A stretch of 38,263 nt of DNA from Acidobacteriota bacterium (GTDB lineage: Bacteria; Acidobacteriota; Thermoanaerobaculia; Gp7-AA8): NCBI GenBank assembly GCA_003223645.1, contig QHVT01000014.1, forward strand, positions 1 through 38,263. Direction: 5' to 3'. This document shows, in pieces, positions 2,843-15,776 of the stretch. A model generated the notes under the pieces. That model ran no database searches and was not told the DNA's origin. It saw nothing but the letters and a program-made list of their open reading frames with translations. The translations under genes and the position numbers were made by a program. The number at the start of each line of letters is the position of its first letter. Positions within the stretch are counted from its first letter, which is position 1.

Positions 2843-3296
2843 CGCGCGTGCAAACAGGCCAGTTGCGCGTGCAAACAGGGCGAGTTGCACATGCAAACAG
2901 GCCAGTTGCGCATGCAACAGGGCGAGTTGCACATGCAAACAGGCGAGTTGCACATGCAAACAGGCCCGTCGCAAACGAAAACAGGCCCGTCGCAAACGAA
3001 AACAGGCCGGTTGCAAATGAAAACAGGCCGGTTGCAAACGAAAACAGGCCGGTTGCAAATGAAAACAGGCCGGTTGCAAATGAAAACAGGCCGGTTGCAA
3101 ACGAAAACAGGCCCGTTGCAAATGAAAATAGGCCCGTTGCAAATGAAAACAGGCCGGTTGCAAACGAAAACAGGCCCGTTGCAAATGAAAACAGGCCGGT
3201 TGCAAACGAAAACGGGCCGGTTGCAAATGAAAACAGGCCCGTTGCAAACGAAAACAGGCCCGTTGCACATGCAAACAGGCCAGGTGCGCGTGCAAA
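2843..3296. repeat. 21-bp minisatellite, about 21 units
   Basis: A tandem array has the consensus unit GGCCGGTTGCAAATGAAAACA (21 bp, described here only in outline: GGCC, S, GTTGCAA, AYGA, AAACA). The core (about 2965-3265) is regular and varies at two main positions: C or G after GGCC, and T or C within AYG. The flanking units on both sides are more diverged (CACATGC or GCGTGC in place of AAATGAA) and sometimes 20 or 22 bp long, suggesting expansion from the middle. Because 21 is a multiple of three and the unit has no stop codon in any frame, all strands show long open frames (for example repeats of RPVANEN or LFSFATG). These are almost certainly artefacts. There are no spacers, so it is not a CRISPR array. 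Confidence 0.9.
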
Positions 3297-12494: not shown

Positions 12495-13610
12495 TCAGCA
12501 GGCGCTCAGCACGCGCTCCCACTCCGCGAACGCTCTCTCCGGCGCGAATCGTGCCAGATAAAGCGCGCGCCCGCGAGCGCCCATCGCTTCGGCTTCGTCA
12601 CGATTCGCTTCGAGCGTGCGAATCGCGCGCGCCAATTCGTCCGCCGTTTCGACGACGATCCCGCAACGATGTTCTTCGATGATGCGCGCAAGCTCGCCGT
12701 CGCGCGCACCGATGAAAATGACAGGGCGCGCGACCGCGAGGACGCCGTAGAACTTGCTCGGCACGATCAATCCTTCGAGCCGCGGCAAGAGCGAGACGAG
12801 ATGCACGTCGACGGACGACAGACTCTCGCTCAGCTGCTCGCGCGGCGCGTACGGACGGACTTCGATGTTCGTCGCGCCCGCGCCGCGAACCGCATCGAGC
12901 TTCGCGCCCCCGCCGGTGAAAACGAAGCGCACGTCGGGCAGCATGCGAACCGCGGCGAGGATCGTGTCGACATCGTGCGCGCGGCCGAGGTTGCCGGAGT
13001 AGCCGACGAGGAGAGCGGGCGTCCCGCCCGCCCCCGGGAGGCGGGCGGGACGCCCGCTCTCCAGCGAGGCGTCTGCCCAGTTGTGAATGACCACCGCCTT
13101 CGGCACCCGCCTCGCCATCAACTCCCCGAGAACAACATTCACGCGCGCACGGCGCAGCGACCAATCCCGAATGCGCTGCAGAAAACGCGGCGCGCGGATG
13201 CCGAGGGCTTGCGCGACCTCGGGAAACAGATCCTGCGTCCAGTTGACGACGTTGCGTGACGCGAGCGTTGCGACGACGGAAAGCAGCGGCGGATCGGTCA
13301 TTGCGATGATGATCGCGTCGCGGCGCTTGCGAATCGCGAAGAACGCGCTGAGGTAGAACGTCGCGTAGTCGACGGCGCGCAGCGGAAGGATCGCGCGGCC
13401 GAAGCGCGTCGACCAGATCCGCTCCACGCGCACGCCGTTTTCGACTCCCGAGGGGAGGTTGGCGCGCGGGTCGTCGTAGCGCTGGCGGCTCGTGATCGCC
13501 TCCACCTCCCATCCGCGACTCGCGAGGTGAAACGCGAGGTCGGACGCCATCTGGCTCGTCGCCGAGTGGTCGGGATGAAAGTAGCGATTGACGAAAACGA
13601 CGCGGCGCAT
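12495..13610 (-). CDS. WbuB-like GT4 glycosyltransferase with an in-frame palindrome insert
   Basis: This is a 371-residue GT-B fold retaining glycosyltransferase, cytoplasmic or membrane-associated. The N-terminal half has VVFVNRYFHPDHSATSQM (4-21) and the segment NVVNWTQDLFPEVAQALG typical of WbuB-like enzymes. The C-terminal half has GYSGNLGRAHDVDTI, then EGLIVPSKFYGVLAVARPVI, the nucleotide-sugar-binding E-containing region. Between the two domains, where relatives have a short linker, this protein carries ESGRPARLPGAGGTPALL, encoded by a perfect 51-bp inverted repeat (13011-13061). The reading frame is kept, so the enzyme may be functional with a longer linker. It starts divergently from the GT-C/TPR gene with only 24 bp between start codons. 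Confidence 0.88.
   Translation of the reverse strand: MRRVVFVNRYFHPDHSATSQMASDLAFHLASRGWEVEAITSRQRYDDPRANLPSGVENGVRVERIWSTRFGRAILPLRAVDYATFYLSAFFAIRKRRDAIIIAMTDPPLLSVVATLASRNVVNWTQDLFPEVAQALGIRAPRFLQRIRDWSLRRARVNVVLGELMARRVPKAVVIHNWADASLESGRPARLPGAGGTPALLVGYSGNLGRAHDVDTILAAVRMLPDVRFVFTGGGAKLDAVRGAGATNIEVRPYAPREQLSESLSSVDVHLVSLLPRLEGLIVPSKFYGVLAVARPVIFIGARDGELARIIEEHRCGIVVETADELARAIRTLEANRDEAEAMGARGRALYLARFAPERAFAEWERVLSAC
13011..13061. repeat. Perfect 22-bp-arm palindrome inserted in frame in a GT4 gene
   Basis: The left arm is 13011-13032 and the right arm 13040-13061, identical as reverse complements over 22 nt (GAGAGCGGGCGTCCCGCC, then CGCC), with a 7-bp CCCGGGA loop. Total length is 51 bp, exactly 17 codons, read as SGRPARLPGAGGTPALL in the GT4 gene on the minus strand. 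Palindromes with the core GGGCGTCCCGCCC are a known style of dispersed repeat in some bacterial phyla. Confidence 0.9.
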
Positions 13611-13634
13611 GGACGCGGATACACTACCGCGCGA

Positions 13635-15776
13635 ATGGGACGGAAATCACGACTTCGGCAGGAGCGAAGAACGGGAGAGCCGGCGCGAGAGAAGCCGCGC
13701 GTTGAAAAAACGGCAGTCCCGCCGGCCGACCGCAAGCCGATTCTCATCGCCTGCGCGCTCCTCGTCGTCGCCATCGCGATCGCGTTCGCGCGCGTGCGCT
13801 CGCAGGACTACATCACGCTCGACGATCCCGAGTACGTCACCGCGAACAGCACCGTGAAGAATGGCCTCAGCGCGGACGGCATCGGCTGGGCCTTCACCGC
13901 CTTCCACTCCGCGAACTGGCATCCGCTGACGTGGATCACGCACATGCTCGACGTCCAGCTCTTCGGCGTCAGCGCGCCCGCGGAAAAACTCGTGAACGTG
14001 GCGATGCACGCGGGCGCCGCGATTTTTCTGTTGCTCTTTCTCGTCCGCGCGACCGGCGCGCTCTGGCCGTCGGCGATGGTCGCCGCGCTCTTCGCGCTCC
14101 ATCCGACGCGCGTCGAGTCGGTGGCCTGGGTCTCCGAACGAAAAGACGTGCTCAGCGCGCTGCTGTTCTTCCTCGCGCTCTATCTCTACGTTCGAGGAGT
14201 GGTGCGCGCCTCCGGCGCGCCTTCGGGCGGGGGCGCGCTGGGGGCACGCACCACTCCGATGATCTGGGTCGCGGTCGTCTTCGCGCTCGCGCTGATGGCG
14301 AAGCCGTCGGTCATCACGCTGCCGTTCGTCCTCCTGCTGCTCGACTGGTGGCCGTTGCGCCGCTTCGAGCGCACGCCGCTGTCGCAACTCCTGCTCGAGA
14401 AAGTGCCGCTCTTCGCGCTGACGCTCGTCTCGATCATCCTCACGCTGCGCGCGCAGACGGAGGCGATCGTGCAGACGTCGCTCTCCTCGCGCATCGAGAA
14501 CGCGATCATCGCCTACGCCGACTACCTGCGCATGCTCGTCTGGCCGGCGGGACTGGCGATCTTCTATCCCACGCCGGCATCGGTTCCCGTCGCGACGCTC
14601 CTCATCGCGCTGGTTGTGCTCATCGCGATCACCGCACTCGTCATTCGCTACGCGCGCCGTTTTCCGTACCTTGTTGTCGGGTGGTTCTGGTACCTCGGAA
14701 CCCTGGTCCCGATGTCCGGCATCGTCAAAGCCGGCATTCAATGGATCGCGGATCGCTACACCTACATTTCATACGTGGGCTTGTTCATTGCGATCGTCTG
14801 GGGCGTGAAAGAAATCGTGGAGCGGCGTCCGCAGCTCACGCGCCCGTTGGCTGCTGTCGCGATCGCGATCATCGCGGCGTTCGGCATCGCGACGTTTGTG
14901 CAGGCCGGCTACTGGAAGGACGCGCAGACGCTGTTCTCGCGCACGATCGCCGTCACGTCGAACAATCCGGTCGCCGAAGCGAATCTGGCGATGATTTTGT
15001 TCGACCGCGACAAGCCGAAGGAGGCGCTGCCGCACATCCGCGCGTCGGTCGCCGCCGATCCGTCGATCGCCAGCTCGCAGTACACGCTCGGCCGCGTGCT
15101 CGACGCCACCGGCGACCGCGCCGGCGCGGAGCAGGCGCTGCGCAAGGCGATCGCGCTCGACGCATCGTTCGCCGGCCCGTATCGCACGCTCGCCGATCTG
15201 CAAATGAAGGCCGGCAACAAGGACGAGGCGCTGCACCTCTTGACGAGAGCGAGTGAGCTCGACGGAGGCGATCCGGCGACGCGCGCGCAACTCGCGGCGG
15301 CGCGCGGCGACCTCAACGCCGCGCTCTCCGATTACGCCGCCGCGGTCGCCGCGTCGCCGAATGATGCGAACCTCCGCAACGACTACGCGACGATGCTCGC
15401 GCGCCAGCAGCGCGATCAGGAAGCGCTCAACGAGTTCAACGAAGTGCTGCGCCTCCGCCCCGATCACTACTTCGCGCACATGAACAGCGGCGCGCTCCTC
15501 CGCCGCCTCGGACGCGAGAACGAAGCGATCGAGCATTTCGCGAAAGCCACGTTTCTCCGTCCGGCGTCGCCCGATCCGCACGTCTATCTCGCGCTCATCC
15601 TCGCCGTGCGCGGCGAGCAGGCGCGCGCGATCTCGGAGATCGACACGGCGATGAAACTCGACGCCGTCGAAGCGAACCGCTACTTCTCCGAGCTCGTGCG
15701 CCTCCCTCCGCAAAACAACAATCTCGCAAGCTATCGCGCCGTGCTGCAGCAGCAGCTCGCGGCGAAACCGAAATGA
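13635..15776 (+). CDS. GT-C-like membrane protein with C-terminal TPR repeats
   Basis: This is a 713-residue inner-membrane protein. The ATG at 13635 is chosen because the in-frame extension to 13527 overlaps the divergent gene. A basic N-terminus precedes TM1 (about 34-50). The first periplasmic loop carries YITLDDPEYVTAN (acidic pair of GT-C enzymes) and ANWHPLTWITHMLD; a later loop has HPTRVESVAWVSERKDV. About ten helices follow (to about residue 425), then about seven TPR-like repeats (from NPVAEANLAMILFDRDKPKE to the end). The layout matches the TMTC/DUF1736-like family of membrane-TPR proteins, some of which are polyprenyl-phosphate-sugar-dependent transferases. A 62-bp palindrome (14196-14257) encodes a cytoplasmic or periplasmic loop segment. 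The stop overlaps the start of the carbamoyltransferase gene (ATGA), so the two are translationally coupled. Confidence 0.82.
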   Translation: MGRKSRLRQERRTGEPAREKPRVEKTAVPPADRKPILIACALLVVAIAIAFARVRSQDYITLDDPEYVTANSTVKNGLSADGIGWAFTAFHSANWHPLTWITHMLDVQLFGVSAPAEKLVNVAMHAGAAIFLLLFLVRATGALWPSAMVAALFALHPTRVESVAWVSERKDVLSALLFFLALYLYVRGVVRASGAPSGGGALGARTTPMIWVAVVFALALMAKPSVITLPFVLLLLDWWPLRRFERTPLSQLLLEKVPLFALTLVSIILTLRAQTEAIVQTSLSSRIENAIIAYADYLRMLVWPAGLAIFYPTPASVPVATLLIALVVLIAITALVIRYARRFPYLVVGWFWYLGTLVPMSGIVKAGIQWIADRYTYISYVGLFIAIVWGVKEIVERRPQLTRPLAAVAIAIIAAFGIATFVQAGYWKDAQTLFSRTIAVTSNNPVAEANLAMILFDRDKPKEALPHIRASVAADPSIASSQYTLGRVLDATGDRAGAEQALRKAIALDASFAGPYRTLADLQMKAGNKDEALHLLTRASELDGGDPATRAQLAAARGDLNAALSDYAAAVAASPNDANLRNDYATMLARQQRDQEALNEFNEVLRLRPDHYFAHMNSGALLRRLGRENEAIEHFAKATFLRPASPDPHVYLALILAVRGEQARAISEIDTAMKLDAVEANRYFSELVRLPPQNNNLASYRAVLQQQLAAKPK
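14196..14257. repeat. 26-bp-arm palindrome inside the GT-C/TPR gene
   Basis: The left arm 14196-14221 (GGAGTGGTGCGCGCCTCCGG, then CGCGCC) and the right arm 14232-14257 match as reverse complements at 23 of 26 positions, with a 10-bp loop. It is read in frame as VVRASGAPSGGGALGARTTP in the loop after a transmembrane helix, where relatives have a short connector. Confidence 0.85.

Follow-up and report, generated by a model that had tools for sequence, protein, structure and literature searches.

REPs take their name from their extragenic position, and classically they carry GTAG as the tag, or variants of it, among which GGAG is accepted. In the passages of Bertels and Rainey (2011; PMC3116915) drawn on here, REPINs are described as extragenic doublets with RAYTs, and 14 of the 1,067 16-mers of SBW25 overlap genes. 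The main text of Di Nocera et al. (2013; PMC3733652) likewise describes most REPs as intergenic and reports REP dimers of the GTAG superfamily within genes of several species, most of them in Opitutus terrae; some lie in frame in functional genes, giving “REP-decorated proteins”, and intragenic REPINs as such are therefore not new. RPE-4/6 of Rickettsia are counted there among the intragenic REP dimers, in a CGTC-tag class without transposase association, while the in-frame RPEs of Rickettsia are given as about 150 bp long in the relevant part of a review (PMC10969869). The window analysed here is a stretch of 38,263 nt from an Acidobacteriota genome (G000; 6.38 Mb in 51 contigs), in which elements of two related families, F1 and F3, are found inside protein-coding genes (Table 1).

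A tagged palindrome in a glycosyltransferase gene

An earlier note, made from the sequence alone, had described a palindrome at 13011–13061 with 22-nt arms and a 7-nt loop. It is present, and the repeat described is a longer one minus one base at each end: the maximal perfect arms are 23 nt, with a loop of 7 nt and a total of 53 bp. An inverted-repeat search of the window returned the same place as arms of 26 nt each (13010–13035 and 13037–13062; 96% complementary). With loops of up to 12 nt allowed, the perfect 23-nt arms are the longest of their kind in the window. Folded as single-stranded DNA, the palindrome has an energy of −38.6 kcal/mol, which lies at z −9.75 relative to 200 shuffled versions. 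The two halves stand inverted to each other, and each is a hairpin by itself (GCGGGCG-TCC-CGCCCGC) that bears GGAG beyond its stem. A chance palindrome is ruled out by the arm lengths in order-2 Markov simulations of the window, where the longest arms were 9–12 nt (n = 10), and by the copy number in the genome relative to a reversed control (see below). The earlier note had also taken the perfect arms to suggest recent insertion or upkeep by a transposase in trans; perfect arms alone do not date an insertion.

Table 1. REPINs of the window and the genes in which they lie (positions in the 38,263-nt window).
Feature	Position	Strand	Basis
F1 REPIN, GGAG...CTCC, 53 bp	13010..13062	.	Inverted-repeat search and family alignment
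First REP hairpin with GGAG tag (GGAGAGCGGGCGTCCCGCCCGC)	13010..13031	+	Sequence, family alignment
Second REP hairpin, inverted (GCGGGCGGGACGCCCGCTCTCC on +)	13041..13062	-	Sequence, family alignment
GT4-type glycosyltransferase, 371 aa, host of the F1 copy	12495..13610	-	ORF and Pfam
F3 REPIN, 62 bp, in frame as GVVRASGAPSGGGALGARTTP	14196..14257	.	Family search
F3 host, 736 aa, TPR repeats	13566..15776	+	ORF and Pfam

The reading frame of the glycosyltransferase carries coding signal on both flanks of the palindrome and GT4/GT1 glycosyltransferase Pfam matches on both sides of it, and the insert (residues 185–201, SGRPARLPGAGGTPALL) fills the inter-domain linker, as the earlier note had proposed. 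The linker reads ESGRPARLPGAGGTPALL here and APIVHDDARFS in the same-genus orthologue of G001, that is, 18 codons versus 11. Since the net gain is seven codons and the linker has been replaced, the locus is not an exact 17-codon insertion; of the earlier description as exactly 17 codons in frame, the frame and the 51-bp core stand, whereas the tagged element is 53 bp long and an exact insertion is ruled out by the comparison with the orthologue. Other members of the GT4 family have linkers of 11–12 codons, apart from that of G011, which is longer and of different sequence. A conserved GT4 linker is also ruled out, as the inserted residues occur in none of the homologues aligned, all of which lack the palindrome, and the longer linkers of distant GT4s have other sequences. 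At the place of F1, the G011 protein (L116) has a different, CAGCAGGCAGC-rich, repeat-like stretch (VRQQAADSRQQ). In an AlphaFold model built from a 21-sequence alignment, mean pLDDT is 90.4 and falls below 50 only at residues 189–197, inside the insert; according to this model, the F1 insert now forms a disordered linker between the two GT4 domains in place of the 11-codon linker.

The start codon of the neighbouring F3 host gene is uncertain because its called ORF overlaps the GT4 start, and no orthologue of this gene was found beside the GT4 gene of G001.

Three REP families and a single RAYT gene

At up to two mismatches, the source genome contains 164 F1 half-sites and a single match to the reversed pattern, in line with the further copies anticipated by the earlier note. 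Neither of the outcomes on which that note had said its reading would fall was observed, as none of the homologues aligned has the residues without the palindrome and the unit is far from single. The genome has about 90–100 F1 copies, the upper figure being an extrapolation from 128 sequences that cover 148 of the 164 half-sites. Clusters were counted in two sets, one of 89 (the window plus 70 stretches picked around copies, one around the transposase gene) and a larger one of 91 (the 128 sequences). Gene calls rest on a codon model of our own that was trained on the long ORFs in these stretches, and not on an annotation. By these calls, 32 of the 89 clusters lie inside genes, 10 at gene edges and 47 in gaps. 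Twenty-five of the 32 passed both flank tests, and two were then set aside (L089:3073, a lone hairpin 35 nt past an ORF start, and L091:3680, an F3 element). By this hand count, 23 clusters in 22 genes have one-frame coding sequence on both sides, L085 and L091:3018 with one weak flank each. An automatic pass over the 91 clusters also returned 23 strict copies, a set that includes L050 and L091:3680 and lacks L085 and L091:3018.

When 60-nt segments were placed at random in these sequences (n = 3,000), 68.5% fell strictly within genes and 7.2% between them. With 23 of 91 clusters strictly intragenic and 51 intergenic, F1 is depleted in genes and enriched in gaps; the comparison of genes with gaps suggested by the earlier note thus bears out in-frame copies within genes, although more F1 copies lie in gaps. 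All three families found here (F1, F2 and F3) have hairpins with GGAG outside the stem, and both F1 and F3 form inverted REP doublets. Two hairpins, by half-site count, are present in 90 of 91 F1 clusters, a figure that may be inflated by overlapping half-site matches, and in 69 of 86 F3 clusters. The F1 family alignment includes eight F1 clusters without two regular tagged ends, plus one F3 cluster. Pfam families are matched by 19 of the 22 F1 host genes. The hosts encode an E1/transketolase-type dehydrogenase, MetRS, two histidine kinases, histidinol dehydrogenase (HisD), PurH, a PPDK_N enzyme, NRPSs (one with two copies), a transglycosylase/transpeptidase (PBP), an aminotransferase, a tricorn-type protease and others. 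Two intergenic F1 copies (L062:3000–3082 and L063:2991–3075) lie inside an outer inverted repeat, TTCTCCCCGC...GCGGGGAGAA, which is also found without F1 at L067:1975.

The sister family F3 (GGAGTGGTGCGCGCC...) has 200 half-sites in the source genome and none in the control. Its 86 clusters were taken from the exact matches among the best 100 of the 200 half-site hits, together with copies in other stretches, and the stretches used contain 145 of the 200 half-sites; two places (C25:11570 and C21:672487) were left out of the analysis. Fifty-five clusters are strictly intragenic (in 54 genes), two have weak support, 12 lie at edges and 17 are intergenic, so that F3 does not share the mostly extragenic habit of REPs. 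Its intragenic share is not different from that of random placement (p 0.36); gaps are nonetheless enriched (p 1e-4). A first indication that F3 is always intragenic (17 of 17, from unmasked elements without flank test) fell to the strict fraction given above after masking, flank tests and the addition of more copies. Eight of the ten F3 hosts checked match Pfam, including an aromatic amino acid lyase, an ABC transporter, a molybdopterin oxidoreductase and a gamma-glutamyltranspeptidase. The predicted tryptic peptide of F3 is ASGAPSGGGAPEAR, with variants. In the PurH gene (L071, 2160–3728), an F1 REPIN is nested in an F3 REPIN at 2967–3060, both in frame, and two single genes (L102:9877–11064 and L091:2943–3842) contain both F1 and F3, or mixed, inserts.

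One Y1_Tnp gene, for which the earlier note had advised a search, was found in the source genome (C4:53122; L042:6859–7587). It is a Y1 HUH transposase related to TnpA-REP, with a Pfam Y1_Tnp score of 31 bits (cut-off 23); among solved structures it matches 4er8, a TnpA-REP, best (E 4.8e-4). In the surrounding region (L042:6859–7817), one F2 REPIN lies upstream and three lie in tandem downstream, the F2 tag being GTGGAG; the RAYT reading frame runs into the first downstream F2 REP, which would encode a C-terminal tail. The arrangement of a RAYT flanked by its own REP was not found for F1 or F3 in this genome. The suggestion of a transposase acting in trans is thus matched by a RAYT gene, but by one that is flanked by F2 and not by F1. 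We infer that this RAYT mobilises F1 and F3. The 38 F2 clusters comprise 18 strict intragenic, two weak, five edge and 13 intergenic ones. Matches to Y1_Tnp occur in 79 of 100 genomes, are absent from G001 and show no plain link to F1 numbers, RAYT-type genes being common in relatives with few F1 half-sites.

Relatives and empty orthologous sites

By GT4 protein, the nearest relatives are MAGs that bear the name Acidobacteriota or Thermoanaerobaculia. With no more than one mismatch allowed, F1 half-sites number 106 in the source genome and at least 10 in each of ten of 99 relatives, of which G010, G016, G048 and G009 are the richest; the same-genus G001 has none. No F3 half-sites were found in 19 relatives, G001 included. 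The intragenic habit was not seen for the F1-like half-sites of G009, where two of 28 usable loci lie inside a gene; of the 30 loci sampled, two were truncated at a contig end, which placed the tested centre outside the element, and several loci share one element.

For 16 of the 23 F1 copies there is an orthologue, mostly in G001, whose identity is 50% or more on each flank, and the insert is in none of the orthologues shown for those sites. No relative was found for five copies, and matches were weak for both NRPS copies of L081. On this comparison of sequences, the empty sites of 16 F1 hosts and of 13 F3 sites would indicate mobility. With its many copies, many of them in frame in genes, the unit looks like the mobile element entering coding DNA that the earlier note had postulated.

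The length gained at these sites varies. A net gain of 21 codons (63 nt) is seen in L089 and L091 versus G001 and in L041 versus G014 and G005; L041 gains 23 codons versus G001, apart from which 63 nt is the largest gain at an unnested F1, and L089 gains 19 versus G014 and G005. The PurH gene gains 27 codons, its F1 lying inside an F3 element. At ten other sites the gain is 4 to 17 codons (seven in the GT4), and it is negative at two variable linkers, MetRS (−6 versus G001) and L087 (−8 versus G005). As most net gains are smaller than the unit and two are negative, replacement is indistinguishable from insertion followed by trimming. Thirteen F3 sites could be aligned to a relative. The gain is precisely core+1 nt at four of them, namely L271 (versus three relatives, with all host codons kept), L321, L278 and the L310 copy at 2981 (weaker orthology). 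Eight others gain less, 5 to 19 codons, L310:11446 gains 17, and at L339 two relatives differ by +36. The values are negative at L103 and L338, because some orthologues in G005 and G014 have different inserts in this position or close to it. In the orthologues of L338, a molybdopterin oxidoreductase, the place of F3 is taken by low-complexity repeats (KDEGGRMKDEGGRTK... and ...HPSSF...; L369 in G014 and L355 in G005). The histidine ammonia-lyase of G005 (L365) has an in-frame F1-like hairpin pair; F3 sits some 15 residues away in the L103 orthologue, and the same loop has received an insert independently in each of two genera.

Frame, length and comparison with known systems

Most intragenic copies of a family share a reading frame. 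Translation gives EESGRPAR... for 17 of 23 coding F1 copies, with three copies in each of the other two frames, and GVVRASGAP...APEARTTP for 42 of 46 complete (two-hairpin) strict F3 copies. Length is biased as well. Of the 23 coding F1 copies, 22 have a core length of 2 mod 3, versus 25 of 40 two-hairpin intergenic ones (Fisher p 0.005; three longer intergenic clusters left out), the coding cores measuring 53 nt in 21 cases, 54 in one and 56 in one. For F3, the figures are 38 of 46 strict copies versus 2 of 13 intergenic ones (p 1.5e-5), with length classes of 59, 62, 65 and 71 nt in genes, all 2 mod 3, and mostly 63–67 nt in gaps. Because copies descend from one another, these p-values overstate independence. 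The 11 strict two-hairpin copies of F2 are mostly 69 or 70 nt long and none is 2 mod 3; with two such classes, a length of 3n is no rule for every family. The simplest account is that the inserted unit equals core+1 in F3 and core+10 in F1, both multiples of three at the common lengths, and that host codons were often lost at or after insertion. The frame bias may stem from peptide tolerance, target phase, or both.

The analysis has established how many copies there are and how they are built, that many of them lie in frame within genes, that the sites are empty in relatives, that frame and length are biased and that the genome has one RAYT gene. We read the palindrome, with a probability of about 0.86, as a REPIN, a small non-autonomous mobile unit that spread in this lineage, often inserted in frame and survived in linkers and loops. 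Two inverted, GGAG-tagged REP hairpins make up one such unit, and F1 would have spread within this lineage, being absent from the same-genus G001. As F1 is stop-free in the frames read and its commonest inserted length is apparently a multiple of three, many insertions into genes would add about 18–22 residues without breaking the protein, and those in linkers and loops would survive. Insertion itself was probably clean, host codons being trimmed at or after the event, and the inserted peptide is presumably tolerated rather than useful.

A tentative extension, which we hold at marginally less than an even chance, is that the REPIN population has adapted to coding DNA: stop-free, 3n variants of F3 would use genes (~87% of the sequence) and would have multiplied there, placing one 20–24-residue peptide in ~75 proteins, a number extrapolated from the 55 strict copies in stretches with 145 of 200 half-sites. 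Somewhat short of even odds is the explanation that an ordinary REPIN family inserts at random and that the in-frame copies, common frame and length class are the survivors of purifying selection on frameshifts, stops and harmful peptides. The strong enrichment of F1 in gaps agrees with it, as do the avoidance of W, C and runs of basic residues in the favoured frames and the intragenic REP dimers reported from other species in the main text of PMC3733652; the chance-level presence of F3 in genes does not, nor do its several intragenic length classes, all 2 mod 3 while gaps hold mostly 63–67 nt, as if a frame-neutral sublineage had multiplied. An insertion-site preference, in which the transposase cuts at a short target word tied to a single codon phase and so creates the common frame, is unlikely. 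Each family does have a dominant phase (9 of 11 copies in F2), T stands directly outside the F3 tag in 54 of 92 flank readings (strict copies, both ends pooled), and F1 keeps CGA|core|TCG. The conserved flank may, however, belong to the element, the shared GGAG tag lies in different codon phases in F1 and F3, and the clean empty sites have no common word by eye. That the inserts are selected for as a useful linker or module, e.g., a flexible spacer or proteolysis site, is very improbable despite the one dominant frame and the reuse of loops (as in the histidine ammonia-lyase of G005), since the host proteins are functionally unrelated, the G001 orthologues lack the insert and the spacer sequences vary freely between copies.

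Read as REPINs spliced in frame into dozens of genes, F1 and F3 would be a clear natural case of mobile DNA inside proteins. Three related REP families with unequal intragenic shares in one genome make the traits of gene-dwelling elements (length mod 3, frame and peptide) testable in one organism. Known enzymes here also carry dozens of naturally acquired inserts at sites that are empty in orthologues, and these offer a map of protein tolerance to some 20 extra residues, with at least one precise insertion junction (L271). The peptides common to many proteins here should not be annotated as a domain.

No account of a frame or length bias of intragenic REPs was found in the literature searched, which included passages of PMC3733652. 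Nor was a family that is intragenic at chance rate, in one frame and mostly 3n found in the parts of PMC3733652, PMC10969869 and PMC3116915 covered. The GTAG REP dimers, as described in the main text of PMC3733652, are alike in being short, tagged, inverted hairpin pairs that are dispersed, sometimes in frame and RAYT-associated; the present families differ in carrying GGAG and in the random-rate intragenic share of F3, and for them frame bias, length bias and empty sites were measured. In the REPIN/RAYT system of SBW25, going by the passages of PMC3116915 cited above, the unit is likewise an inverted REP doublet that is absent from a relative, with a RAYT in the genome, but REPs are mainly extragenic there and dozens are intragenic here. 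The likeness to the coding palindromes of Rickettsia drawn by the earlier note holds for in-frame insertion into genes and not for the tag: as far as the descriptions in the review (PMC10969869) and the main text of PMC3733652 allow comparison, the RPEs are also palindromic repeats in frame in unrelated genes, but they are ~150 bp long, with CGTC as the tag of RPE-4/6, whereas the elements described here are 53–71 bp long and carry GGAG.
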